From: Myotis daubentonii
Lineage: Eukaryota; Chordata; Mammalia; Chiroptera; Vespertilionidae
DNA: 64,000 nucleotides
Assembly: GCF_963259705.1 (NCBI RefSeq)
Contig: NC_081840.1
Coordinates: forward strand, 116,301,074 to 116,365,073
Direction of reading: 5' to 3'
Shown piece after piece: positions 10,761 through 53,831 of this stretch (its first letter is position 1; each line of letters begins with the position of its first letter). The notes beneath the pieces were generated by a model. That model did no database searches. It saw nothing but the letters and a program-made list of their open reading frames with translations, and was not told where the DNA came from. A program made the position numbers and the translations under genes.

Positions 10761-11182
10761 TAAATAAGTAAATGACAGGAAAAAAAATAATTTTAATATT
10801 TAGTGAATTTTGGTCTACATTAATGTAAAGCTTTAAAAAGTGTTGTATATAAAGAAAGTTAAAATTTTCATTCATTAGCTGATTCTAAAACTTATTTTTT
10901 ATGTGCTGCAGTTTATTTGTGCCAAACTAAATATACCAACTCAAACTTATGTTTTAATTTAATGATAAAATATGTATGAACACCGAAATGGCCTCAGATA
11001 CAGATTCCCTATACTCTGGAACAGTTTCAATAAAATGATAAAAATAAAAAATGTAAAATTTAATCATGTTCAATTGTGTATCCATATTCATCTTTTAAAA
11101 GAATCTCTTATCTCCCACTGACAGAATAAATTAATAAAAACATTCTTTTCAATCCTCTTTTTAAAGTAAAGAATGTTCACTG

Positions 11183-11405
11183 AGCTGAAACCGGTTTGGC
11201 TCAGTGGATAGAGCGTTGGCCTGCGGACGGAAAGGTCCCAGGTTCGATTCCGGTCAAGGGCATGTACCTGGGTTGCGGGCACATCCCCAGTGGGAGATGT
11301 GCAGGAGGCAGCTGATCGATGTTCTCTCTCATCGATGTTTCTAACTCTCTATCTCTCTCCCTTCCTCTCTGTAAAAAATCAATAAAAATATATTAAAAAA
11401 AAAAA
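11183..11405 (+). mobile_element. VES SINE
   Basis: Complete young-looking copy: A-box region 'tggctcagtggatagagcg', B box 'ggttcgattcc', pyrimidine tail and A-tail. A perfect 15-bp target duplication (aaagaatgttcactg) lies at 11168-11182 and 11406-11420. The tRNA-like head is not a tRNA gene, because the 3' half is SINE body. Confidence 0.95.
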
Positions 11406-11749
11406 AAAGAATGTTCACTGGTTAAAGTTATAAACTTATTTCCCTTTTTAATAAATCTTTTTAGTGTTTTCTTTAAAAATATAGGTTTCAAGGAAAAATT
11501 TTCACTTCCCAATTTGTAAGTGAATACGTGACTTAGATAATACTGTTTTTAAATATTTTGTTAAAGGAAATATCTTCCTTGCCTTCTGGGAATTATAAGA
11601 GAGAAGTGGTCAAGAGGTTTTCAAGCAAGAAATTTATTACAACTTTCCTAACTTGTAAGTATTTTGACTCCTCCCATTTCAGATCACTTAGAATTTTTGT
11701 ATTTCACTTATTGATACAGATTTTTTTGGACTGGAACCTGGATTCTTTG

Positions 11750-16554: not shown

Positions 16555-18170
16555 TTTTATGCTTCCCTGTGTTGGTAGAGTGGTTTTGTGTGCTAGGTGT
16601 CCTGTAGGGCCCAGTGGCTCAGCCTCCCCAGTTACCTGAGGTGGACACTCTTGGTGTACCCCATTGTGGGATTTTTGCACAGTCTTATTGTAGTTATGCC
16701 TTGATTGTTGTAGGATCACTGGGAGGAATTGACCTCCAGGCCAATTGGCAGTGAGAATCAGCTGTGTCTGCAGTGGGAGAACTTCTGTGCTGAAGACACC
16801 CTTCTGGGGCAAGACTTGCTTCAGTGGGGTTTTGGTGCTCACTGAGTCTGCTCCCTGAGTGTGTCCCTTATGGATCTGTGGAGTTGTAATCTGGATGGTC
16901 CCACTCTGTCCACTGGGTACACTGGCTCTTGGATCTAAGGAGGTGCTAATTTAGCCTCTGCCTGAGGTTACACAGCAGGAGCTACGAAGAGAACTGCAGA
17001 TTCCCCTTCCTTTTTTGGGGTTTGGAGGTGCCCTGATGAGGCCCAGCTGTGAAGCAATGCAAGCCTCTGTGGGGCCTTGGGCCTTCTCTTGGAAGTTCTG
17101 GGTCTGTCTGGCCCAGCTGCAGTTAGGTAATTTTCAGGTTGCAAAGAGCTGGGGCATTCATATGCAAAAGCCTCTGCCGCAGCATGGGTGGGGCGAAGTC
17201 TCAGGAAATCAAAGGGCAGAGCAAGAAGCTATGGCGGATTTTCAGCCCTGCCCTAAGGGGCCGTGCGTCTCAGTGTCCCGGTAATTGCTGCAAGCACCTC
17301 TGAGGGAAAGCCGTCCTCAAGTTCTGAGCTCTGCCCGCTGCCAGACAGTCCAGTTTCTCCCTGTATGATTTCTGGGTCCCCAGAGACTTCCAGGAACCAG
17401 AGTTCAGAGCAGTCAGGAGCTTGTGACTCCCTCCTGATTCAAAAAGACAGCCGTGTCCTCAGGTGCCAGACCCTTTCTACGCGCGCGAGCCTCCGTACCT
17501 CTGCACTTTACTTCCGCAGCTCCTCTGGCTCTCAGTGTGCTTTTCTTTCCTTCTAGTTGTAGAATTTCCACTCAGCCAGCTTTCCTGTAGTTCTGGATGA
17601 TGTCTGTTTTGTCTTTATGTTGTTTTTTTGAAGTTGTTGTGGGAGGCAGCAATTTCCCGGTGTTTATCTATGCTGCCATCTTAGTTTCTTCTTCAGTTAT
17701 CAGGAAATTTTTTAAAGTACCAAATATGTTGGGTTAGAGAAACTTTATCAGTCTGTCCAAGAACTAACAATGGAAAGAACTATCATCCCCTGACCTAGCT
17801 GCTAATAGTTTCACACTGTCTTTGTTGTGTGCATACTCAGCAAGATTGGATTCAACATTGAAAGAGAGGTGGAAGAGGCAACATTTCACCTAAACAGTCT
17901 GTTAATATAAAAAGCTAGAAGTTCAAGATCTTGATAGGTCTGTAACCACACTATATTGAATTTAATGTATCCCAGTAAAGACTAAGAAATTTTCTCCCTT
18001 TTAAATTGTTATAAAGTTACCATCTTTGCGCTCAGAAATGAATAAATGAATAAAAACATAGTTTAGAAATAAATTGATAGAAATTTGTAGAAGTGTTCTG
18101 GTAAGAAAAAGGAGAGTGATGGGTTGTGGAAAGTAGCAGGGAATATCAAAATATATAAGAAGTTTATTGA

Positions 18171-18391
18171 GCCAAAACCGGTTTGGCTAGGTGGATAGAG
18201 CGTAGGCCTGTGGACTGAAGGGTCCCAGGTTCGATTTCGGTCAAGGGCATGTACCTTGGTTGCGGGCACATCCCCAGTGGGAGATGTGCAGAAGGCAGCT
18301 GATCGATGTTTCTCTCTCATCGATGTTTCTAACTCTCTGTCTCTCTCCCTTCCTCTCTGTGAAAAATCAATAAAATATATTTTTTTAAAAA
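18171..18391 (+). mobile_element. VES SINE
   Basis: Full SINE with head 'aaccggtttggctaggtgga', B box 'ggttcgatttcgg', pyrimidine and A tail. A perfect 14-bp duplication (aagaagtttattga) lies at 18157-18170 and 18392-18405. Confidence 0.95.
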
Positions 18392-18839
18392 AAGAAGTTT
18401 ATTGAATAGAACCTGGCTGTAAGATCCATCAAGCTCTCAGCTAAATGCTATAATGCTGTTACAAGTCAAAGCATATCCACTTTAGAAACATTCCCAGTTT
18501 TTCCTTTAGCCTGCATGTTTCATAGAGCAGGACCTAGAATCCATGGACAAGTTTTTAAACTCTGAATTCATATGTTAATTTGGCCCTTAGCCACCATCCC
18601 CTTACATGGAGTGTAAATTCAGGCAAAGACATTTTTACAGATTCAACTCAATTTTTCTGTTCTTTCTCGTGCATGTCTTAATTTTTCAAAGGGACAAAAT
18701 ATTTTAATCACTACCCTTAATGTTGAGCTTTGTGTTTTCATTTATGCCTACTGTCTCTGTGGAACAGTCCCCAGGGTCACCCTACCCACCTGTCCCTGAC
18801 TGTATCTTGGAATTAGTTTCTTCATCCAGCTAGTAGTGG

Positions 18840-24877: not shown

Positions 24878-25326
24878 TCCTATATAATAAAAGACTAATA
24901 TGCAACTCGACCGAATGGCAGAATGACCCATCACTATGACACACATTGACCACCAGGGGGCAGACATTCAATGCAGAAGCTTCCTCCTGGTGGTCAGTGT
25001 GCTCCCACAAGTGGAGCACCACTCAGCCAGAAGCCGGGCTCACAGCTGGCGATCCCAGCAGCTGTGGCGGAAGCCTCTTCTGCCTCCAATGCAGTGATAA
25101 GGACTCCTTGGGGGATGTCCGCCTGTCAGCTTAGGACCTGTCTACGGGCCTATGCCGGCAGGCGGACATCACCCGAGGGGTCTCGGACTGTGAGAGGGAG
25201 GAGGCTGGGCTGAGGGACTGAGCTGCCATGACTTGGCAGTGGTGGTTCTTAGGTGATGCACCCTGGAACCAGAGATGAGGGAGCTCTCACACTCTAGGAA
25301 CCAGATGTTGTGCACTGGGCCTCTAG
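24878..25326 (+). mobile_element. HeliBat, array member 1
   Basis: 5' TC terminus (tcctatataataaaagacta) after a host A. The 3' end 'gtgcactgggcctctag' is at 25310-25326. The body contains 'cattgaccaccagggggcag' and its inverted counterpart 'cctggtggtcagtgtg', a long internal stem. Its CTAG is followed directly by the TC of the next element. Confidence 0.93.
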
Positions 25327-27796: not shown

Positions 27797-28012
27797 GGCC
27801 CTGGTTGGTGAGTTTCAGTTGGTTGGAGCACCACCACATGTAATGAAGGGTCACTGTTCAATTCCCAGTCAGGGAACATATCCAGGTTGTGGGTTCAATC
27901 CCCAGTTTGGGCACATATGGGAAGCAGCAGATCAATATTTCACTCTCACATCAATGTTTTTATCTTTCCTCTCCCTCTCCTTTCTTCTCTCTCTAGATTC
28001 AATGAAAACATG
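27797..28012 (+). mobile_element. VES-type SINE, old
   Basis: Diverged head 'ttggccctggttggtgagtt', 'gttcaattcccagtcaggg', 'ggttcaatccccagt' and the pyrimidine tail. No clean target duplication seen. Confidence 0.75.
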
Positions 28013-28173
28013 TCTTTCAGTGAGTATTTAAAAGTTACAAGAAAAAAACTATATTTTGTTCTCTTTCCAGCCAATACAAAAAAATTTAAAACAACAACAA
28101 CAACAATAACAACAACAAAAAACAATAGGGACTAGATTTACCTTCTTGCCTGAAACAACTTTTAAAAACTGGA

Positions 28174-28363
28174 TCCTGGATGGCATGGCTCAGGGGTTGA
28201 GTGTCTACCAATGAACCAGGAGATCATGGTTCAGTTCCCGGTCAGGACACGTGTCCAGGTTCCAGGATTGATCCCCAGTGTGGGGCATGAAGGAGGCAGC
28301 CGATCAATGATTTTCTCTCATCATTGATGTTTCTCTCTCTCTCTGAAATCAATAAAAATATAT
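28174..28363 (+). mobile_element. VES-type SINE
   Basis: Head 'tcctggatggcatggctcag', 'gttcagttcccggtcagga', then 'ggcagccgatcaatga', pyrimidine tail and 'aaatcaataaaaatatat'. A perfect 14-bp duplication (ttttaaaaactgga) lies at 28160-28173 and 28364-28377. Confidence 0.9.
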
Positions 28364-28377
28364 TTTTAAAAACTGGA

Positions 28378-28970
28378 AAAAGCATATGAAATGTCAGTTT
28401 TCAAAATTTTGGCTATCAGGCATCCCTGAGAGATGATAAACAAAGAAAGTTAGCACTGTAATTGTTCCACCTTACTATCTGAAGACTGTTTCCATGCTGT
28501 AGCACAGGGAGAAGGAACCAATAAAAAGTAGAGACTTAATGAGCAGAGACAGCCATGTAAGGAAACTACATGAAATCAGGAAAAGAAACAACCAGAGCAT
28601 AGGGTATAGTCCTCAAGCCTACACAAGGCTGAGATAGTTACTATTTCTACTAGGCAGAATTGAAAAACTATATAACTCACAGGGCATTGGGTAAAATGTT
28701 CAGAAGGGCTTTCTCTCAGAGGTGGAGTAATATCAACTCTTAAAATATATTAAGTTCTGGAATTACCTAACGAAGCTTAAAAATAAGAATAAAACTATTT
28801 CTGTGTAACTTAATTATATCTCATAACAAATATTTGTTATAAAACATAAATATCTCAGCAAGCTAAAATAAAATGGTGCTTCCTCAATCTGATTAATTTC
28901 AGCTATAGAAACCTATAGCTAGGTTCATAGTTATTAGTGAAAGACTAAATGTTTCCCCTCCAAAAATATT
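28378..28970. other. No feature recognised
   Basis: AT-rich sequence between a SINE and a decayed L1. Confidence 0.5.
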
Positions 28971-29460
28971 AATAATAATAATGTAAGGATATGTACTCAT
29001 GCCCAGTTCTATTTAACATTATGCAGGAGGTACTAATCAGAGCAGTAAGACAAGAAATCATAATATAAGCTATTCAGATTGGAAAAAAAGGAAACCTGTC
29101 CTTTTTTTGCAGCTGACATGATAATGTATATAGATAATCCTAAAGATTCCACCCAAAAATTACTACAACTGATAAATGAATTCAGTAATATAATAGGATA
29201 CAAAATAAGTATCTAGAATTCAGCTGCATTTTTATACACCAATATGAACTATCAGAAAGATACTAAGAAAACAATCCCACTTACTATTGCAACATAAGAA
29301 TAAGGTGACTATGAATACATTTAGCCAAGAGGTAAAAAACCTGTACTGAGAAATCTTTAGGACACTGAAGAAAGAAATTGAACAAGATACAAATAAGTGA
29401 AAGCATATACCGTGCTCATGGATGGGAGAATTAACAGCATTAAAATGTCCATACTACCCA

Positions 29461-29677
29461 TACTAGCTGGTTTGGTTCAGCAGATAGAGCATCGGCCTGC
29501 AGACTAAAGAGTCCTGGGTTTGATTCCAGTCAAGGGCACATGCCCGGGTTGAGGGCTCGATCCCTAGTAGGGGGCATATAGGAGGCAGCTGATCAGTGAT
29601 TCTCTCTCAACATTGATGTTTCTATCTCTCTCTCTCCCTCTCCCTTCCTCTCAGAAATCAATAAAAATATATTTTAA
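29461..29677 (+). mobile_element. VES SINE inside the L1
   Basis: Head 'ctggtttggttcagcagata', 'ggtttgattccagtcaaggg', pyrimidine tail and A-tail. Duplicated L1 target 'aaaatgtccatactaccca' (left) and 'aaaatgtccatattaccca' (right), one mismatch. Part of this SINE and its right flank recur inverted at 30431-30633. Confidence 0.92.
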
Positions 29678-30012
29678 AAAATGTCCATATTACCCAAAGT
29701 GATCTATAGAATCAATGTAATTCCTATTATAATTCCAATGGCATATTTCAGAGAACTAGAACAAATGTTCCAAAAATTTATATAGAACCACAAAAGACCC
29801 CAAATAGCCTCAGCAATCTTGAGAAAGAAGAAAAAAGTTGGAGGGAGCATAATACTTAGTATCAAACTATACTACAAGGTCATTATATTCAAAACAGTGT
29901 GGCAATGGTATTGGAACAGGCATATAGTTCAATGGAGCAGAACAGAGAGCCCAGAAATGAACCCACACCTAAATGGACAAAGGAGGCAAGAGCATACAAT
30001 GGGGTAAAAACA

Positions 30013-31317
30013 TCTACACTAATAAAAGACAAACATGCAAATTGACCATACCTTCACTACACCTTAAGCCACGCCCACCAGCCAATCAGAGCGACTATAT
30101 GCAAATTAACCCAACCAAGATGGCGGCCGGCTCAGGCTTATCCACTGAACTGTCCTAGCATCTTTGTCAAAAATTAATTGACCATATGTGTATGAATCTT
30201 TTCTGAACTTTCTATTCTATGCATTTATTTATTTGTCTGTCTCTACATTAATACCAGATAGTCTTAATTACTATAGATTTATAATAAATCTTAAAGTCAG
30301 GTGACATAAGTCCTCTAACTTCTCTATTTTAAATTGCCTTTATTATTCTAGGTTCTTTGAATTTCTGTTTAAATTTAGAATTAGCTTATTTTCACTTTAT
30401 TTTTATTGTTGGCACTTTTATAGATGTCCTATCACTTTGGGTAATATGGACATTTTTAAAAATATATTTTCATTGATTTCTGAGAGGAAGGGAGAGGGAG
30501 AGAGAGATAGAAACATCAATGATGAGAGAGAATCACTGATCAGCTGCGTCCTATATGCCCCCTACTAGGGATCGAGCCCTCAACCTGGGCATGTGCCCTT
30601 GACTGGAATCAAGCCCAGGAATCTTTAGTCTGCTGGAGCAAGCAGGAGGCTTGGTTGCCCCAATGATGGAGGAAGCCAAGCTTCCCGCTTGCCATGTCAG
30701 GCTCTGAGCGCCACTCAAAGCAACAAAGTTTCAATTATAGAAGATAAATAAACCCCAGATACCTGCTTTCAGCCAGCCATGGCCATGGAGCTGGAGCGAG
30801 CAGGAGGTTCGCTCCTGCCAGCCCTGGCCGGCTCTGCGCTCCACTGAAGGCAACGAAGTTTCAATTATAGAAGGTAAATAAATCTCAGAATAAAAAAAAG
30901 AAATAAAAAAAGGAGAGGCTATGAGCTTCTATCACCGGGGGTCTTGGCCAGCCTGAAAATGGCCCTCAGCCCCTCATCCAGACTGGCCAGGTACCCCAGC
31001 GGGGACCCCCCACCCTAAAGGGGGTGCGGCCAGCCTGAAAACAGCCATCATCCCCTCATCCAGGCTGGCCAAATCTCCATGGGGTGAGGGTCCCCACTGG
31101 AGGGGGCTTGACCAGCCTGCAAACAGCCCTCAGCCCCTCACCCAGGCTGGCCAGGCACCCCAGTGGGGACTCCCACCCTGAAATGGGTGTGACCAGCCTG
31201 AAAACAGCCATCAGCCCCTCACCCAGGCTGGCCAGGCACCCCAGCAGGACCCCCACCCTGATCCGGGACACCCTTCAGGGCAAACCAGCTAGCTCCCACC
31301 CATGCACCAGACCTCTA
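30013..31317 (+). mobile_element. HeliBat A of a composite pair (5' unit)
   Basis: Starts TC ('tctacactaataaaagacaa') after a host A. The 5' region has 'agccaatcagagcg', 'atatgcaaattaaccc' and 'aagatggcggccgg'. The 3' part has tandem 'ggccagcctgaaaacagcc' blocks and ends 'catgcaccagacctcta', where CTAG has lost its G. It touches HeliBat B at 31318. It carries a foreign block at 30138-30633. Confidence 0.9.
30138..30633 (-). repeat. Inverted chimeric copy of the flanking L1/VES locus inside HeliBat A
   Basis: 30138-30428 is the reverse complement of 33017-33307 (291 bases, same length, about 4 differences by eye). 30431-30633 is the reverse complement of 29499-29703, including part of the VES SINE and its L1 target site (about 7 substitutions and one 2-bp indel). 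The two donors lie right and left of the Helitron. The block equals the inverted local locus with its interior removed. Confidence 0.92.
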
Positions 31318-31784
31318 TCCTATATAATAAAAGGGTAATATGCAAACTGACCCTAACAGCAGAACCACTGGGAATGACTGGTCACTATGACACACACTGA
31401 CCACCAGGGGGCAGACGCTCAATGCAGGAGCTGCCCCCTGTTGGTCAGTGTGTTCCCATAGGGGGAGTTCTGCTCAGCCACAAGCCAGGCTGATGGCTCC
31501 CAGTCCAGCGGTGGTGGTGGGAGCCTCTCCCACCTCCTCAGCAGCCTTAAGGATGTCTGCCTGCAGCTTAGGCTTGCTCCCTGCTGGCAAGTGGACATCC
31601 CCCAAGGGCTGCCAGGCTGCCAGAGGGATGTCTGACTGCCAGCTTGGGCCCAATCTCCCAGGGAGCGGGGCCTAAGCCAGCAGGTGGACATCCTCCGAGG
31701 GGTCCCAACTGCAAGAGGGCACAGGCCAGGCTGAGGGACTCCCTGCACCCTGAGTGCACAAATTTTTGTGCACTGGTCCTCTAG
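31318..31784 (+). mobile_element. HeliBat B of the composite pair (3' unit)
   Basis: Starts 'tcctatataataaaagggta' immediately after HeliBat A. It has the internal inverted 'tgaccaccagggggcag' / 'ccccctgttggtcagtg' stem and ends with the palindrome gtgcacaaatttttgtgcac (31754-31773) and CTAG at 31781-31784, followed by a host T. Confidence 0.95.
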
Positions 31785-33049
31785 TTTTCTTTAATAAATG
31801 GTATGGGAAAATTAGACAGGTACATGAAAAGAAAAATAAAATGAGACCAGCAACTTACACAATAGACAAGAATAAACTCAATATGGACAAAAGACTTAAA
31901 TGTAAGTTGAAAAATCATAACAATCCAAAAGAAAACATCAGCAGAAAAATTTCAGACATCTCTTATAGATAAAAATTTTTGCTGATGTGTCTCCTAGGGC
32001 AAGGGAAATAAAAGAAAAAGTAAACATGGGACTATGGCAAACTAAGCAGCTCTTCCATAGCAAAAGAAACCATCATCAAAATGAAAATGGAGCCCACTGT
32101 ATGGGAGAAAGTATGCACCAATGCTACATCTGATAAGGATAATTTTCAATATATATATAGAACTTATACAATTATAAACCAGCAAGGCAAGCGGTAAAAT
32201 TAAAATATGTCCAAAGAGGACCTAGAGATGGCTAATAGACATATGAAAAAAATGCTCAAAGTCACTATTCATCAGAGGGATGCAAATTAAAACCACAATG
32301 AGATACCACCTCACGTCTGACCTAATAGGCAACATCAATAAATCCACAAACAATAAGTTCTGGCAGGATGTGGAGACAACTGAACCTTAGTGCATCGTTG
32401 GTGGGAATGCAGATTGGTGTAGCCACTGTGGGAAATAGTATGGAGTTTAAAAATTAAAAATGGAACTTCCTTTTGACCCAAGAATCCCACTTTGTGGAAT
32501 ATATCCTAATATTCCTGAAACACCTATTTGAAAGCATATATGTACCCCTATGTTCATAGTAGCATTTTTATAATAGCCAAGATTTGGAAACAGCCCAAGT
32601 GTCTTTCAGTAGGTGAGTGGATAAAAATGTGTGGTTATTTACACAATGGAATACTATGAGGCCATAACAAAAGAAGGAAATTTTACATTTGTGACAGCAT
32701 GGATGAACCTAGAGATTATTATGCAAAGCAAAATGAGCTAGTTGGAGAAAGATAAGTACCATATGATCTTACTTACATATGGAAACTAATGAACAAAATA
32801 CTAATGGACAGAATAGAAACAGAGGCAAATAGATAAATGGAACAGACTGTCAACTGTCAGAATGGATGGGGGAGAGAAGTACTGAATGAAGGAATGTGAA
32901 GAATTAGCCAAAGAACATATATGCATACCCCACAATGACAGACAACAGTGTGGTGATGGCCAGAAGGAAGAGAGACTGGGTGTTGGGAGGAGGTGGGCAA
33001 AGGATTAGAAAATTAAGACATCTATAAAAGTGCCAACAATAAAAATAAA

Positions 33050-34150
33050 GTAAAAATAATCTAATTCTAAATTTAAACAGAAATTCAAAGAACCTAGAAT
33101 AATAAAGGCAATTTAAAATAGAGAAGTTAGAGGACTTATGTCACCTGACTTTAAGATTTATTATAAATCTATAGTAATTAAGACTATCTGGTATTAATGT
33201 AGAGACAGACAAATAAATAAATGCATAGAATAGAAAGTTCAGAAAAGATTCACACACATATCGTCAATTAATTTTTGACAAAGATGCTAGGACAGTTCAG
33301 TGGATAAAAAATAATCTTTTCAACTAATGGTACTGGAACAATTGGCTATCCATAAGCAAAAAAACAAATGTTAATCAATAACCCACACCATGTATAAATA
33401 TCAACTCAGATTATAAGTGTACATTAAAATCTAAAACTATAAAAATTCTAGAATAAAATCTTCAGAGTCTTGGTTGTGTTAGGCAATGATTTCTTAGGTG
33501 TGGCTCCAAAAGCAAAATCCATACAGAAAAAATGATCAATATAATAAAGAACTCTTGTGCTGTAACAGACACTGTTTATAGAATGAAAAGGAAAGTCACA
33601 GGGTGGAAGAAAATATTTGCAAATTTCTTGATTGATAGAGAACTTTTGTTCAGAATACAAAAGGAATTATCAGAATTTAACAAACATCTCAATTTTTGAA
33701 ATGGGAAAAACTGTTGAATAAAATTTCACCAAAGAATATAGATAGATGGGCAATTATAACAAGTAAAGATGGCCAACGTTAATAATAGGGAAATGCAAAT
33801 TAATACCATGAAATATTACTACCTATCTATTAGAATTTCTACAATAAAGAAAGATTGACCACTGCAGGTGTTGGTGGGGTGTGAAGCAAAGGTAACTCTT
33901 ACACACTGCTGGAGGGAAATTAAAATAGTTCTACTTTGTAAAGTAGTTTAACAGTTTTGTAAAATCTTAAACATAACCCTACCACATGAACCAATTATTT
34001 ACCTAGAGAGAGAGAGAGAAAAGCATAAACCTATGCAAGGATTTGTTTATGGGTTTTCACAGAAGCTTTATTTGTAGTAACCAAAAACAAACTGAATGTT
34101 TATCATTAATAGTCAAATGGATAAACAAATTGAGTTTATGTATATAATCT
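33050..34150 (+). mobile_element. Older L1 ORF2 3' region
   Basis: Diverged ORF2-like blocks on the + strand: 'agtaattaagactatctggt', 'aatttttgacaaagatgcta', 'gaaagtcacagggtgg', 'cacactgctggagggaaatt'. It follows the A-rich end of the younger L1, so they are two separate elements. Confidence 0.75.
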
Positions 34151-34161
34151 TCTATATATAA

Positions 34162-34685
34162 TCTATACTAATAAAAGGGTAATATGCTAATTAGACTGGG
34201 AGACCTTCTGGACATCCTTCCAGACAAAACCATGGTGGCGGGGCTGAGGCAGAGGCAGTTAGGGGTGATCAGGCCTGCAGGGGAGGGCAGTTGGGGCAAG
34301 CAGGCCAGCAGGGGGGGTTGGGGGGTAAGGAGGCCAGCAGGAGGGGGCAGTTGGGGGCGAGCAGACCAGCGAGGAGGGGGGAAGTTGGGGGTGAGCAGGC
34401 CGGCAGAGGCAGCAGTTGGGGGTGATCAGGCCGGCAGGGGGGGCAGTTGGGGTGAGCAGGCTTGCAGGCAGAGTGGTTAGGGGTGATTAGGCAGGCAGAA
34501 GAGCAGTTAAGAGCCACTGGATTATGAGAGGGATGTCCGACTGCCAGTTTAGGTCTGATCCTGCAGGGATAAGGACTAAACTGGCAGTTGGACATGACCC
34601 GAGGAGTCCCAGATTGGAGAGGGTGCAGGCCAGGCTGAGGGACACCCCCACCCCTGTGCACAAATTTCATGCACCAGACCACTAG
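34162..34685 (+). mobile_element. HeliBat with an internal minisatellite
   Basis: 5' terminus 'tctatactaataaaagggta' after a host A. 3' end with palindrome 'gtgcacaaatttcatgcac' and CTAG at 34682-34685. It abuts the next HeliBat directly. The block 34259-34500 is a GC-rich tandem repeat. Confidence 0.92.
34259..34500. repeat. GC-rich minisatellite inside the HeliBat
   Basis: Imperfect units of about 30-36 bp built on 'gcagttgggggtgagcaggc' plus 'cagcaggggg'. It gives a fortuitous 98-codon open frame. Confidence 0.85.
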
Positions 34686-34976
34686 TCTATATATATAAAA
34701 GCCTAAGTGACTGTTACAGCCGGTTAACAAAATGACTGGTTGATTGGTTGCTATGACGCACACTGACAGACGCTCAATGCAGGAGCTGGCCCCTGGTGGT
34801 CATTGCATTCCCATAGCCAACCTCCCGTGGCCAGTCAACCTCCCGCAGTCTCTACCCCTGGCCAGCCAGCCCTGATCGGCCCTGATTGGACTGGGCAAGA
34901 TGGCCCTTATTGGCCCCAATCACCAGTCAGGACAAGGGACCCCAACCATTCATGAATTCATGCACCAGGCCTCTAT
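34686..34976 (+). mobile_element. HeliBat, short, abutting the previous one
   Basis: Starts 'tctatatatataaaagccta' right after CTAG. It ends 'catgaattcatgcaccaggc' plus 'ctctat', with a perfect palindrome but CTAG changed to CTAT. Confidence 0.88.
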
Positions 34977-35104
34977 TGACCTATAAAATGCATTAATAGA
35001 CTAATGCCCTGCAAGAACAAAAGATTCATGGAACCTCATGGGAAAATCTTAAAATTGTTCTGAACAAAAGAAGTTCCATAAATTAGGATTCTTTTTATAT
35101 TAAA

Positions 35105-36108
35105 CTAGAGGCCCAGTGCACAAAAATTTGTGCACTCCGGGGGGAGGGGTGGTCCCTCAGCCTGGCCTGTGCCCTCTCACAGTCTGGGACCCCTCGGGAG
35201 ATAACGACCTGCTGGCTTAGGCCTGCTCCCGGGTGGCAGAGGGCAGGCCCAATCCCTAGGTGCAGCCCCTGGTCAGGCTCAGAGCAGGGCTGATTGGGGA
35301 GTTGGGGCGCCTTCCCCTGTCATGCACAGAGCAGGGCAGATTGGGAGGTTGTGATGCCACCCTCAGTCACGCACAGGGTAGGGCCGATTGGGGGGTTGGG
35401 GCACCACCCCCTGTCACACTCAAGGCAGGGTCGATGGGGAGGTTGCAGCGTCACCCCCTGTCACGCACAGAGCAGGGCCCATCAGGGGGGTTGGGGCTCC
35501 ATACCCTGTCATGCACAGAGCAGGGCCCATCAGGGGGGTTGGGGCTCCATACCCTGTCACGCACAGAGCAGGGTCAATCAAGGGGTTGGGGAGCTCCCCC
35601 CTGTCATGCACAGAGCAGGGCCGATCAAGGGGTTGAGGAGCTCCCCCCTGTCACTCACAGAGTAGGGCCGATAGGGGAGTTAGGGCACTGCCCCCTGTCA
35701 CACTCAGGGCAGGGCGGATCAGGGGGTTGGGGCGCCGCCCTCTATCACCCACAGAGCAGGGCCAATCAGGGGGTTGGGGTGCCACCACTGTCACACTCAG
35801 GGCAGGGCGGATGGGGAGGTTATGGCTCTATCCTGTCACACACAGAGCAGGGCTTATCAGGGGGTTGAGGCGCCAGACCCTGTCACACACAGAGCTGCAG
35901 AGCGATCAGGTGGTTGGGGCGCCTTCCCCTGTCACAAACAGAGCTGGCGGATAGGGAGGTTGTGGCCCCGCCCCCTGTCACACACAGAGCCGCAGGGCGA
36001 TCAGGGGGTTTGGGCGCTGTCCCCTGTCATGCTGATCCCGGTGCCGGGAGGCATCTTGGCTCCGCTGATCCCGGTGCTGGGAGGCATATTACCCTTTTAC
36101 TATATAGA
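35105..36108 (-). mobile_element. HeliBat B-type unit with 48-bp minisatellite (3' unit of a composite)
   Basis: The 3' end is at the left: ctagaggcc and palindrome gtgcacaaaaatttgtgcac (35116-35135), preceded by a host A. The 5' terminus is at the right (minus strand TTCTATATAGTAAAAGGG, then TAATATGCC). It abuts the minus-strand HeliBat at 36109-36745. Most of its body is a tandem repeat. Confidence 0.93.
35275..36025. repeat. 48-bp minisatellite, about 15-16 units
   Basis: Units such as those starting at 35461, 35509 and 35557 are exactly 48 bases apart and share 'cacagagcagggc', 'atcagggggg' and 'ttggggc'. The 48-base period is a multiple of three, so 16-residue repeat frames stay open (up to 202 codons at 35260-35868). 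I regard these as shadows. Confidence 0.92.
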
Positions 36109-42745: not shown

Positions 42746-43214
42746 GTATAGAATACTATCTTAGATATTCTAAGGAAACTGGATGGTAGTCCTGGATCTC
42801 CCATTAGCAGTGTGACATTTAGAAACTATTTGCTTGTTTTTGGTTGTTTCTACATCACTGATAGAAGAACGCAGGCTACTCTCTGTTATCTAATTTGTTG
42901 TGATTATTTAGGTTTCTTCCAGTTCTCTTTTTTTTAATTTTTTTAATTTATTGCTTAAAGTATTACAAAGGGTATTACATATGTGTCCATTTTTCCCCCC
43001 CGCCCTAGACAGTCCCCTAGCCTCCCCTATCCCCCAGTGTCTTATGTCCATTGGTTATGCTTATATGCATGCAGACAAGTCCTTTAGTTGATCTCTTACC
43101 TCCCTACCTCCTGCCCCCCAACCCTCCCCGGCCTTCCCGCTGCAGTTTGACAATCTGTTTGAGGCAGCTCTGCCTCTGTATCTATTATTGTTCAAAAGTT
43201 TATAATGGTCTCTA

Positions 43215-46200
43215 TTATCCATGAATGAGTGAGATCATGTGGTATTTTTCCTTCATTGACTGGCTTATTTCACTTAGCATAATGCTCTCCAGTTCCATCC
43301 ATGACGTTGCAAATGGTAAGAGTTCCTTCCTTTTTAGAGCAGCACAGTATTCCATCGTGTAGATGTACCACAGTTTTCTAATCCATTCTTCTACTGATGG
43401 GCACTTAGGCTGTTTCCAGATCTTAGCTATGGTGAATTGTGCTGCTATGAACATAGGGGTGCATATATCTTTTCTGATTGGTGTTTCTGGTGTCTTGGGA
43501 TATATTCCTAGGAGTGGGATCACAGGGTCAGATGGGAGTTCCATTTTCAGTTTTTTAAGGAAACTCCATACTGTCTTCCATAGTGGCTGCACCAGTCTGC
43601 ATTCCCACCAGCAGTGCACAAGTGTTCCTTTTTCTCCACATCCTCTCCAGCACTTGTCCTTTGTTGATTTGTTGATGATAGCCAGTCTGACAGGTGTGAG
43701 ATGGTACCTCATTGCTGTTTTGATTTGCATCTCTCGGATGATTAGTGACTTTGAGCATGTTTTCATATGTCTCTTGGCTTTCTGAATGTCCTCTTTTGAA
43801 AGGTGTCTATTTAGGTCCTTTGCCCATTTTTTGATTGGATTGTTTATCTTCCTTTTGTTAAGTTGTATGAGTACCCTATAAATTTTGGAGATTAGGCCCT
43901 TATCAGATATGACATTGGCAAATATGTTTTCCCACACAGTGGGTTTTCTCGTTGTTTTGTTGATGGTTTCTTTTGCTGTGCAGAAGCTTTTTATTTTGAT
44001 GTAGTCCCATTTGTTCATTTTCTCTTTCGTTTCAAGTGCCCTAGGAGCTGTATCAGTGAAGAAATTGCTTCGGCATATGTCTGAGATTTTGTTGCCTTTG
44101 GATTCTTCTAGAATTTTTATGGTTTCCTGTCGTACATTTAAGTCCTTTATCCATTTTGAGTTTATTTTTGTGTATGGTGTAAGTTGGTGGTCTAGTTTCA
44201 TTTTCTTGCATATATCTGTCCAATGTTCCCAACACCATTTATTGAAGAGACTATCTTGGCTCCATTGTATGTTCTTGCCTCCTTTGTCAAATATTAATTG
44301 AGCATATTGGTTCGGGCCGATTTCTGGGCTCTCTATTCTATTCCATTGAACTATATGCCTATTCTTGTGCCAGTACCAGGCAGTTTTGAGAGCAGTGGCT
44401 TTGCAATACAGCTTGATATCTGGTATTGAGATCCCACCTACTTTGTTCTTTTTCAGGATTGCTGCAGCTATTCGGGGTCTTTTTTTATTCCAGATGAATT
44501 TTTGGAGAGTTCGTTCTAGATCTCTGAAGTATGCCGTTGGTATTTTAATGGGAAGTGTGTTGAATTTATAGATTTCTTTGGGTAGTATGGACATTTTAAT
44601 GATGTTGATTCTACCAATCCATAAACACGGTATGTTCTTCCATCTGTTTATGTCTTCCTCTATCTCTATTTTCAACGTCCTGTAGTTTTCTGAGTAGAGG
44701 TCTTTTACCTCTTTAGTTAAGTTTATTCCTAGGTAGCTTAATTTTTTTGGTGCAATGGTAAACGGGATTGTTTTTATAATCTCTCTTTCTGAAAGTTCAC
44801 TATTGGTGTATAGAAATGCCTCAGATTTCTTGGGGTTAATTTTGTATCCTGCTACATTGCCAAATTCATGTATTAAGTCTAGTAGCTTTTGGATGGAGTC
44901 TCTAGGGTTTTGTATGTATAATATCATGTCGTCTGCAAATAAGGACAGTTTTACTTCCTCTTTTCCAATTTGGATGCCATTTATTTCTTCTTCTTGCCGA
45001 ATTGCAATGGCTAACACTTCCAGTACTATGTTGAACAGGAGTGGTGAGAGGGGGCATCCCTGTCTTGTTCCTGTTCTTCGAGGAAATGGTGTTAGTTTTT
45101 GTCCATTGAGTATGATGTTGGTTGTGGGCCTGTCATATATGACCTTTATTATGTTGAGGTATGATCCTTCTACTCCCACCTTACTGAGAGTTTTTATCAA
45201 AAATGGGTGTTGAATTTTGTCAAATGTTTTTTCTGCATCAATTGATATGACCATGTGGTTTTTTTCTTTCAATTTGTTTATGTGATGTATCACGTTTATT
45301 GATTTGCGGATATTGTACCATCCTTGCATCCCTGGGATAAATCCTACTTGGTCGTGGTGTATGATCTTTCTGATGTACTGCTGGATCCGATTTGCTAAGA
45401 TTTTGTTGAGGATTTTGGCATCTATGTTCATGAGGGATATTGGCCTGTAATTCTCTTTCATTATGTTGTCTTTACCTGGTTTTGGTATTAGGGTGATGCT
45501 GGCTTCATAGAATGAGGTTGGAAGTGTTCCTTCCTCTTGAATTTTTTGTAGTAGTCTGAGGAGGATAGGTTTTAGTTCTTCCTTGAATGTTTGGTAAAAC
45601 TCCCCTGTGAAGCCGTCTGGTCCTGGGCTTTTGTTTGATGGAAGCTTTTTGATGACTGCTTCAATTTCTTCCATAGTTATTGGCCTGTTGAGATTTTTAG
45701 ATTCTTCCTGATTGAGTTTTGGAATGTTGTATTTTTCTAGGAATTTGTCCATTTCCTCCAGGTTGTCTAGTTTGTTGAAGTAGAGCTGTCCATAGTATTT
45801 TTTAACAATCATTTATATTTCTGTGGGGTCTGTTGTTATTTCGCCTCTATCGTTTCTGATTTTGTTTATTTGGGTCCTCTCTCTCTGCTTCTTGGTGAGT
45901 CTGGCTAGAGGTTTGTCAATCTTGTTTATACTTTCAAAGAACCAGCTCTTGGTTTCATTGATTTTCTGTATTGTTTTTTTGGTCTCTATGTCATTTATTT
46001 CTCCTCTAATCTTTATTATCTCCTTCCTTCTGCTCACTCTGGGTTTTTCTTGTTGCTCTCTTTCTAATTCTTTGAGTTGTAGAGTTAGATAATGTACTAC
46101 CATTTTTTCTTGTTTTTTGAGATAGGCCTGTAGAGCTATAAACTTCCCTCTCAGGACTGCTTTCATTGTGTCCCATAGGTTTTGGATTGTTGTGTTTTCA

Positions 46201-48058: not shown

Positions 48059-50064
48059 GTTTGATCTCACTGACATATCTAGACGTTGAGTTGTTCAGTG
48101 GTTGCTCCCTTGGTGGCAGTGACTCCTTGGTCTGTGGTTGCTCTTCGGGCGGTTGTGGTAGCAGCTGCTCTTCAGTTGTCAGCAGCTCCTCTGGTGGGTG
48201 CTGTTCACAGCTGTGGTGGCTCTTCCGGCTGGTGGGGCGAGGTTTCACGTACAGCTGCTGTTCCTCAGCAGAGGATGAGGTGCTCAGGAGGTTGCTGTTG
48301 CTTGGATCTGCTGCGTTGATTTAAAGGCACAAAATACAACACAACAAGGCACCACGTACCAGGCACTATACACAAATATATTCACGATATTAATAACCCC
48401 AATTAAAGGTGACCACCTGAATTAAGAGAATTAGGGGATAAGGAAGAAGGAAGAGAAAAAGATAAAAGGGAAAAAGGAAAAGAAAAGTAGGGACCGAAAA
48501 AAGGGAGTGCAAAAATGAAATTGGGAAAAAGGAAGGGGGAAAATAAAAGCGAGAAAAGAAAAGAAAAAAAAAAAAAGAGCGAAAAGAGAGAATGAAGTGG
48601 AAGAGGGAAGAGACTTTTTATATGAGGAGAATACTCCTATAGAACAGCCATTAATCCCAACAAATTCCAGCAACAGCTCCCTGGATATGAGTGCAAACTA
48701 GAAACAACCAATAATATAACGATGAAAATAGAATGGTGAACACCAATCCCAAAATAAAATAAAGAAAAAATAAAATGGCACTTTAAAAAAATGGTAAAAT
48801 GGTAGCAGTAATAATACTGGTTAAAAATAAGAAGGTAGTAATTAAAAGGGTAAAATCAGGTGATGGAAAAAGAAGAAAGAAAAAAAGAAGAAAAAAAAAA
48901 AGAAAAAAAATTGGTTTCTTAGTTAAAAGGTGAAAAAAGAAAAAAAAATGCAGTAGTGAAGGTCCTTCGGTTCTTCTATTCTTCAGTGTGGCTCCCCTTA
49001 GACCTGCCAGGTATTCAGGAGAGTGTTGAGTTTCCCTGTGATACACTGTTCCTCTGTGTTGTAAACCACAGTCCTTATTTTAAAGCAGGCTGTATTTGTT
49101 CCCCAGACTGCCTTATTTTGTGTTTAGCAAAGAGTCAGTTTGTGGGTCAGCCTCTGGGTGGCAGTGTTCTGGGGTTGGCCTCTGAGGCTATAGGGCCTCT
49201 CTGTCCAGTGGAAGTAAACTGCCCAGAGCTGGCTGCATAATAGTTAGTTACCAGCGCTGTGTTGTTGCTGGGATTGAAAATCCCTCTATAGGCCAGACCC
49301 TGTTAACTCCCAGGGACTGATAAGGTTATTTTAATCCTTGATCTCATTCAGGGTGGAATCTGGGTGTGGCTGTGCTCCTTGCCTGGGGGCTGGGGGGAGG
49401 AGTCTCACTCTCAGGAGAGAATGGCTGCCCCAGTCCTGGGCTCAGGGGTGTCTCAGCACTCAATTCACTGCCACCTCTCTCGGCCCCCCTTCTCTCCTCA
49501 GTCTCTCCCCAGATTCCTGTCCTCTGCACCCTCTCCCTCTCTTCAGCACAGGTGAGTGTCTGTATCCCAAATGTCCCATGAACAGGATTCAGTGAAAACA
49601 AACAAACAAACGCCAGCCGCGGAAACGGGGAAGGCTTGGTTTCTGTAAGCTTCTTCTCTTACCGGGACAGCATAGTCTGGTCAGCTCTTCAGGCTCTCCC
49701 CTTTAGGCTCAGTCCTCCGTGATCACAGAACCCAGCTCTCAATTCCCCCGGTGGTGCCTGGAATCCCGCGGTTCTCCTTTCCCCATCAGGGGCTGTGCCT
49801 GTCCCAAGGGATGCGGCTGTCTGCCACGTGGTCTCCCTCCGTCTCTCTGGGCTCAGAGGTCTGGCAAACGTTCCTGCCCAAATGCCTATTTTGTTTTTTT
49901 TACCTTTCCAGGGGAGTTCTGCTCTTCCCGTCTGCAAACCGTCTCACCAGCTGAGCAATTTCGCCAATTCGGGTTGGGTGTTATTAGTTTCAGCTGCTCA
50001 CTCCATTTGCTCCGGGACATGACCTGGGACGCGTCTGCCTATATCGCCGCCATCTTCCGTCTCC
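48059..50064 (-). promoter_or_regulatory. L1 5' UTR with internal promoter region
   Basis: About 2 kb between the YY1-type motif at the element's 5' end and the ORF1 start. The part 49340-50064 is GC- and CpG-richer than its surroundings, as expected for an L1 internal RNA polymerase II promoter. The part 48420-48960 is A/G-rich. Activity is inferred. Confidence 0.75.
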
Positions 50065-52388: not shown

Positions 52389-52917
52389 TCTACACTAATA
52401 AAAGAGAAACATAGTAATTGGCGTACGACCGCTACCCTTTTCATTGGCTAATCAGCTAGATATGCAAATTAACTGTCAGCCAAGATGGCGGCAGGCAGCC
52501 AGGCAGCTTGAAACTAACATGAGGCTTAGTTGCCTCAGTGACGGAGGAAACCAACGTTCCCCGCCTGGGGCTGCAGGCCTCTGAGCCTGCAGTTTCAAAC
52601 ATTGTAACAAATACTGCCAGACTTCAGCTAGCAGATTCTCAACATTGTAAGCAAAGGACAGAAACCTACTTTCCGGAGCGGAGGCCTAAGAGCTGCAGCC
52701 AAGCCTCAAGCTAAAGCTGGCCCAGAATAAAAAAAAAAAAAAGGAAAAAAGGAGCGTTTGGGAGTTCAGTCACCACCAGCCTGAAAACAGCCCTCAGCCC
52801 CTCACCCAGACTGGCCAGGCACCCCAGTGGGGACCCCCACCCTGATTCAGGACACCCTTCAGGGCAAACGAGCCGGCCCCACCCATCACCCATGCACCAG
52901 GCCTCTACCCTATATAG
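52389..52917 (+). mobile_element. HeliBat A-type unit (5' unit of a composite)
   Basis: Starts 'tctacactaataaaagagaa' after a host A. It has 'cattggctaatcag', 'tatgcaaattaactgtc' and 'agccaagatggcggcagg', then 'ccagcctgaaaacagccctc', ending 'catgcaccaggcctcta'. Same layout as 36745-36109 and 30013-31317. Confidence 0.93.
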
Positions 52918-53831
52918 TAAAAGGGTAATATGTCTCCCAGCACCGGGATCAGAGGAGCCGCGAGGCCTCTCGGCACCGGGATCAGCATGACAGGGGGCAG
53001 CGCCCAAAAACCCTGATAGGCCCTGCTCTGTGTGTGAGAGGGGGCGGCACCCCAACCCCCCCCACCCCACCCCCGGGCCCTGCTCTGTGTGTGACAGGGT
53101 AGAGCCATAACCTCCCCATCGGCCCTGCCCTGAGTGTGAGAGTGGCGGTGCCCCAACCCCCTGATTAGCCCTGCTCTGTGGGTGATAGAGGGTGGCGCCC
53201 CAAATCCCCCCGCTCCCCCCACGGGCCCTGCTCTGTGTGTGAGGGGCTAGAGCCATAACCTCCCCATCAGTCCTGCCCTGAGTGTGAGAGTGGCGGTGCC
53301 CCAATCCCCTGAATGGCCCTGCTCTGTGGGTGATAGAGGGCGGCGCTCCAACCCACTGATTCCCCCTGCTCTGTGTGTGACAGGGGATGGTTCCCCAACT
53401 CCCCTATTGGACCTACTCTGTGAGTGACAGTTAGGGCGCTCCCCAACCGCCTGATGGGCCCTGCTCTGTGTATGACAGGGTATGGAGCCCCAACCCCCCC
53501 GATGGGCCCTGCTGTGTGTGTGACAGGGGGCAGTGCCCCAACCCCCGGATTGGCCCTGCTCTGTGCGTGACAGGGGATCGCGCCGCAACCTCCCCATCGA
53601 CCCTGCCTTGAGTGTGACAGGGGGTGGTGCCCCAACCCCCCAATCAGCCCTGCTCTGAGCCCGACCAGGGGCTGCACCTAGGGATTGGGCCTGCCCTCTG
53701 CCACCCGGGAGCAGGCCTAAGCCAGCAGGTCGTTATCTCCCGAGGGGTCCCAGACTGCGAGAGGGCACAGGCCGGGCTGAGGGACTCCCCCTCCCCCCGA
53801 GTGCACAAATTTTTGTGCACCGGGCCTCTAG
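52918..53831 (+). mobile_element. HeliBat B-type unit with minisatellite (3' unit)
   Basis: Starts 'ccctatatagtaaaagggta' directly after unit A. The body holds units related to the 48-bp repeat at 35275 ('ggccctgctctgtgtgtgac'). It ends with gtgcacaaatttttgtgcac (53801-53820) and CTAG (53828-53831) before a host T. Confidence 0.93.
52975..53655. repeat. 48-bp-type minisatellite (reverse orientation)
   Basis: Imperfect tandem units around 'ccctgctctgtgtgtgacag' and 'accccc', the reverse complement of the 35275-36025 repeat. Gives long but meaningless open frames on the minus strand. Confidence 0.88.

Follow-up and report, generated by a model that had tools for sequence, protein, structure and literature searches.

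An inverted, two-sided copy of flanking DNA inside a resident Helitron of Myotis daubentonii, most likely a product of templated repair

Within the 64,000 nucleotides of Myotis daubentonii DNA analyzed here (the window), a Helitron, named Helitron A below, carries a patch of 496 bases that is inverted and was copied from the DNA on both sides of the element. We consider it very probable (roughly 0.85), judging from the sequence, that this patch is filler DNA, formed when a break in the already resident Helitron was repaired by switching to local templates. Inverted two-sided copies of nearby DNA in an otherwise collinear locus are what template-switching repair leaves. The features of the locus are as follows.

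about 29072 to 33058, plus strand: old host L1 copy (L1#1) from part of ORF2 to the 3' end, recognized by collinear blastn matches to a paralogous L1; contains the VES-type SINE and the Helitron composite
29469 to 29684, plus strand: VES-type SINE in L1#1, aligned with 9 further copies from the window; its target-site duplication, AAAATGTCCATAYTACCCA, was recognized by eye
29499 to 29703, plus strand: left donor, source of block 2; the clean limit is 29701, with 29702 to 29703 inside the junction scar
30013 to 31317, plus strand: Helitron A; starts with TC after a host A and ends with CTCTA where Helitron B begins; 809 bases when the patch is excluded
30138 to 30428, plus strand: block 1 of the patch, reverse complement of 33017 to 33307
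30429 to 30432, plus strand: junction scar CTAT between the blocks, where the donors have TATAGAT in common
30433 to 30633, plus strand: block 2 of the patch, reverse complement of 29499 to 29701; part of the SINE and its L1 target
31318 to 31784, plus strand: Helitron B, head-to-tail with Helitron A; ends with CTAG before a host T; other partial copies occur in the window
33017 to 33307, plus strand: right donor, source of block 1; 3' end of L1#1 and start of an older L1 (L1#2)

The element names L1, VES and Helibat are putative and follow general usage, the initial annotation and the cited papers rather than a repeat library.

The initial annotation, made by reading the sequence, had described donors on opposite sides of the Helitron and copies that are both inverted. 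Comparison of the interval 28000 to 35500 with the window by blastn bears this out: 30138-30431 matches 33307-33014 (98.3% of 294 positions, E 6e-145) and 30431-30636 matches 29703-29496 (95.2% of 208 positions, E 1e-90). The limits proposed for block 1 hold at the level of single bases, with 4 differences in 291 positions. Block 2 is indeed the reverse complement of the left flank, with limits now placed at about 30433-30633 against 29499-29701, and contains 7 substitutions in 201 sites and one gap of 2 bases; block 2 is less similar to its donor (about 96.5%) than block 1. As proposed, the order of the blocks equals the inverted local locus minus its interior, 3.3 kb being missing.

The left donor runs from the interior of the SINE into the adjoining L1 sequence, and the limit of block 2 lies 30 bases inside the SINE. 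Since block 2 starts within the SINE and carries the L1 target of that same SINE, it is a DNA copy of the donor locus, and a new SINE insertion was rejected as its source. Both donors are located in cis, at most about 1.5 kb from the Helitron composite (0.3-0.5 kb and 1.2-1.5 kb beyond it), and are still in their L1 context. At the inner switch the donors have TATAGAT in common, a word noticed post hoc; when 24-base stretches of the locus are paired at random, 3.5% of the pairs share 7 bases or more. At the outer junctions there are 0-2 bases of microhomology, as judged against diverged relatives. The 27-mer at 30423-30449, across the inner junction, occurs once in the window, and 100 shuffles yielded no chance match with up to 3 mismatches.

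When self-pairs of the window were kept at an identity of at least 88% and a length of at least 60 bases, 12 remained, of which 5 are inverted: two patch/donor pairs, two matches between Helitron A and its relative near 36.3 kb, and one between 2268-2522 and 16223-15957, which are 88% identical. Examination of all 12 thus leaves the patch/donor pairs as the sole inverted ones that are not plainly dispersed repeat, the pair 2268/16223 being unclassified.

The acceptor had been annotated as a single HeliBat at 30013-31317. It is a Helitron, but the insert in the L1 is a composite of Helitron A and the directly abutting Helitron B. The ends of the composite are A|TC at 30012/30013 and CTAG|T at 31784/31785, and it has the 5'-TC, the CTRR-3', the insertion between A and T and the lack of a target-site duplication that characterize Helibat-type elements; Helitron A alone ends with CTCTA, without G. 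Relatives of Helitron A are located at 36739-36111 (minus strand) and 52389-52906 (plus strand), and short matches at 24885-24912 and 48728-48775 stop short of the acceptor site. In Helitron A and in both relatives the CTCTA end immediately abuts a further Helitron at its 5' end (about TCCTATATARTAAAAGGG), with joins at 31317/31318, about 36111/36110 and about 52906/52907; the sequence past the join is similar between the two relatives and different after Helitron A. The arrangement would reflect either repeated insertion at the 3' end or a composite moving as one; abutting Helitrons are described in PMC4778049. Beside Helitron 3' ends there are also two arrays with a 47-base period, 35266-36029 (about 16 copies) and 53011-53657 (about 12 copies), which are related to each other and lie in opposite orientation. 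A scan of viral contigs for the Helitron core pattern gave 0 matches, and 0 of 4227 RNA families reached their gathering scores in 28000-36000.

The acceptor site itself can be seen without the patch. The initial annotation had named the occurrence of the same block in other HeliBat copies as the observation that would speak against its reading; the block is absent from 2 of 2 relatives that span the site, both being copies from the window. In these relatives 21 bases separate the parts that are homologous to Helitron A on either side, as compared to 15 bases plus the patch in Helitron A. Little acceptor sequence was thus lost; the lost bases appear to be few, the exact ones not being definable from diverged relatives. 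Two unrelated Helitron fragments around an older inverted repeat were considered and rejected, as both parts are collinear with the relatives, where they are 21 bases apart. A hairpin at the acceptor site that might explain a break gave no clear signal (z -0.47 and -1.57) with the two relatives as unpatched stand-ins.

The host element provides a second reference. Three segments of L1#1 (29072-29460, 29678-30002 and 31788-32827) are collinear by blastn with a paralogous L1 at 43100-45000 on the opposite strand; the 3' limit of L1#1 near 33058 was set by eye from its A-rich end. The paralogue shows the site without a Helitron, and the joined flanks are identical at 176 of 230 positions, although it does not itself carry AT at the insertion point. 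As far as can be read from a paralogous copy, it supports the view that the composite 30013-31784 simply inserted and that the donor locus is otherwise collinear.

The patch differs from its donors at 11 of 492 sites, which corresponds to 4.7 My (2.4-8.5) at a rate of 2.366e-9 as used for bats in PMC4436864, where the rate is printed as 'per site/my', which we take to mean per year. Taken separately, the estimate is 2.9 My for block 1 (1.4% divergence) and 7.4 My for block 2 (3.5%); the two divergences are not significantly different (p 0.13). Such an age would be an underestimate if the copies underwent gene conversion. Over 162 comparable sites, the SINE part of block 2 and the donor SINE have 22 non-consensus bases in common, some of which may be subfamily marks, the consensus being built from 9 window copies of mixed kinds. 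Where SINE differences could be polarized, 4 changes occur in the block only and 0 in the donor only; one further difference looks donor-private by eye and was left unscored, as too few copies cover the site. Both the shared non-consensus bases and the block-private changes argue that the copy was probably made long after the SINE had inserted. The VES-type copies at 2522-2752, 11169-11413 and 18157-18396 are mutually 90-95% identical, lie close to the window consensus and are apparently much younger than the donor SINE. For the insertion of Helitron A, three-way distances from the two diverged relatives provide an upper bound of the age only.

We infer a break, the subsequent polymerase steps and a timing after transposition from this arrangement; position and parsimony suggest that the Helitron came first and the patch later. 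The composite would have inserted into the L1, and a break or a collapsed replication fork would then have occurred near base 125 of Helitron A. The left end could have copied 33307 to 33017 and the right end 29499 to 29703, the two new ends finally being joined at the short shared word. Alternatively, one nascent strand could have copied 33307 to 33017, jumped, copied 29703 to 29499 and returned to the Helitron. Both routes predict the same block order, and the sequence does not tell them apart.

An involvement of the two L1 copies in arranging the templates was suggested by their register. The outer limit of the right donor, 33307, aligns with 30006 in the register of L1#1 and L1#2; the Helitron inserted after 30012, some 6 bases away. 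The step from one donor to the other measures 3314-3316 bases as compared to an L1-L1 offset of about 3301, a match to 13-15 bases. Because of these matches, the patch can be read as if the left flank of the Helitron (29499-30006) had been copied by folding back, with the near half taken from the second L1. The matches were noticed afterwards and would have chances of about 0.3% and 0.6% if the limits were uniform over 5 kb. L1#1 and L1#2 are 57.6% identical over 788 columns under loose scoring, and no exact words of at least 8 bases are shared in register; a single 8-mer is shared between 29704-30012 and 33060-33330, out of register at an offset of 3434. Identity of about 58% and the lack of an in-register word of 8 disfavor ordinary homologous pairing of the L1s, and homology-driven pairing was rejected as the main explanation, the lone shared word being at the wrong offset. 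It is thus rather unlikely that the two L1s organized the event, as if direct-repeat pairing had presented a displaced strand as template.

The initial annotation had offered three origins for the block, namely local replication-based template switching, an inverted duplication with a central deletion, and pick-up of flanking DNA by the rolling-circle element at its current site. The first of these fits best, and pick-up is disfavored, since the patch is internal, inverted and two-sided and since the element would have to land between its own two donors. The same difficulty makes a capture during transposition, in which the chimeric block was acquired in replication and the element then inserted at the very same locus, highly improbable, even though Helitrons do capture flanking DNA and Helibat activity is reported to have lasted until as little as 1.8-6 My ago (PMC4778049), a period that overlaps the age of the block. 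The capture demonstrated there for a bat Helitron proceeds by reading through its 3' end into the DNA downstream, whereas Helitron A shows no downstream flank at a new 3' end. Transposase could also have acted indirectly: a nick and strand peeling in rolling-circle transposition would leave a gap at the donor site, and its fill-in might have switched templates locally. The same sequence outcome would be expected and the overlap with Helibat activity (PMC4778049) applies here as well, but the sequence does not call for a transposase, the patch begins 125 bases inside the element rather than at an end, and equivalent gap filling is reported from species without active DNA transposons (PMC8277862), so that we regard this origin as very unlikely.

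The remaining origin proposed initially, in which the whole 3.8-kb locus was duplicated in inverted orientation into the Helitron and then shortened by a 3.3-kb deletion, would account for a block order that equals the inverted locus without its interior. It takes two events, and the patch has no match to 29704-33013 (blastn, E 1e-5); we regard it as no more probable than capture. A false duplication would be expected to show fewer differences between copy and donor than the 11 in 492 sites and the gap observed here, and the 4 polarizable SINE differences are changes in the block, which makes an assembly or read artefact extremely unlikely. Templated filler DNA in a resident element thus remains the preferred reading. 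The patch is, as the initial annotation stated, not a standard outcome of Helitron insertion, but it corresponds to a recognized outcome of break repair, i.e. filler DNA and gap filling.

The closest parallel is the transposition-independent gap filling described for terminal-inverted-repeat transposons (single-copy Pack-TIRs, PMC8277862). There, the donor lies within 15 kb in 160 of 281 unique cases (56.9%), a cis bias, microhomology is present at one or more breakpoints in 190 (67.6%), and an unfilled orthologous element was found in 91 of 97 primate cases. The patch likewise fills a resident transposon that has unfilled relatives (2 of 2 in the window), its cis donors are left in place and little of the acceptor was lost; a 7-base word is shared beside the inner switch and 0-2 bases at the outer junctions. 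In contrast, a Helitron is the acceptor here, and the fill joins two inverted copies whose donors lie on opposite flanks; moreover, Pack-TIR fills are non-TE DNA by definition, whereas the patch is repeat DNA. For insect Helitrons (Hel1), filler DNA is supported for internal acquisitions (PMC6544945), which are similarly attributed to break repair inside the element. The cases compared here are amplified exemplars with source loci elsewhere, whereas the patch stems from the site at which Helitron A inserted and is not known to have been mobilized.

Templated insertions by MMBIR (PMC8421209) and short-range template switches (PMC7954356) are also inverted copies of nearby templates, sometimes with several templates per event and with short microhomology. 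However, MMBSearch seeks templates within 100 bases (PMC8421209), while the patch, a germline relic, consists of stretches of 200-290 bases copied from 0.3-0.5 kb and 1.2-1.5 kb beyond the composite. Small inverted triplications (PMC13334657) resemble the patch in having a local inverted copy among direct ones, but here each donor is merely duplicated and two different segments are fused. The 3'-end bypass of Helraiser (PMC4778049) likewise adds flanking DNA to a bat Helitron, but it extends the 3' end into downstream DNA. A narrow search of the open-access literature, in the parts of these reports it covered, did not find a Helitron combined with two opposite-flank donors that are both inverted.

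The locus thus offers a readable case in which a Helitron most likely gained DNA by repair in place and not by transposition. Comparison with related species would allow the steps behind this scar, with its two templates and its uniform inversion, to be dated. Should patches of this kind prove common among vesper bats, part of the sequence counted as Helitron gene capture may be filler from repair, open to later mobilization. Overall, filler DNA in Helitrons and gap filling with a cis bias in terminal-inverted-repeat transposons are known from the reports cited (PMC6544945, PMC8277862); what is unusual is to see a Helitron filled from both sides with both copies inverted.
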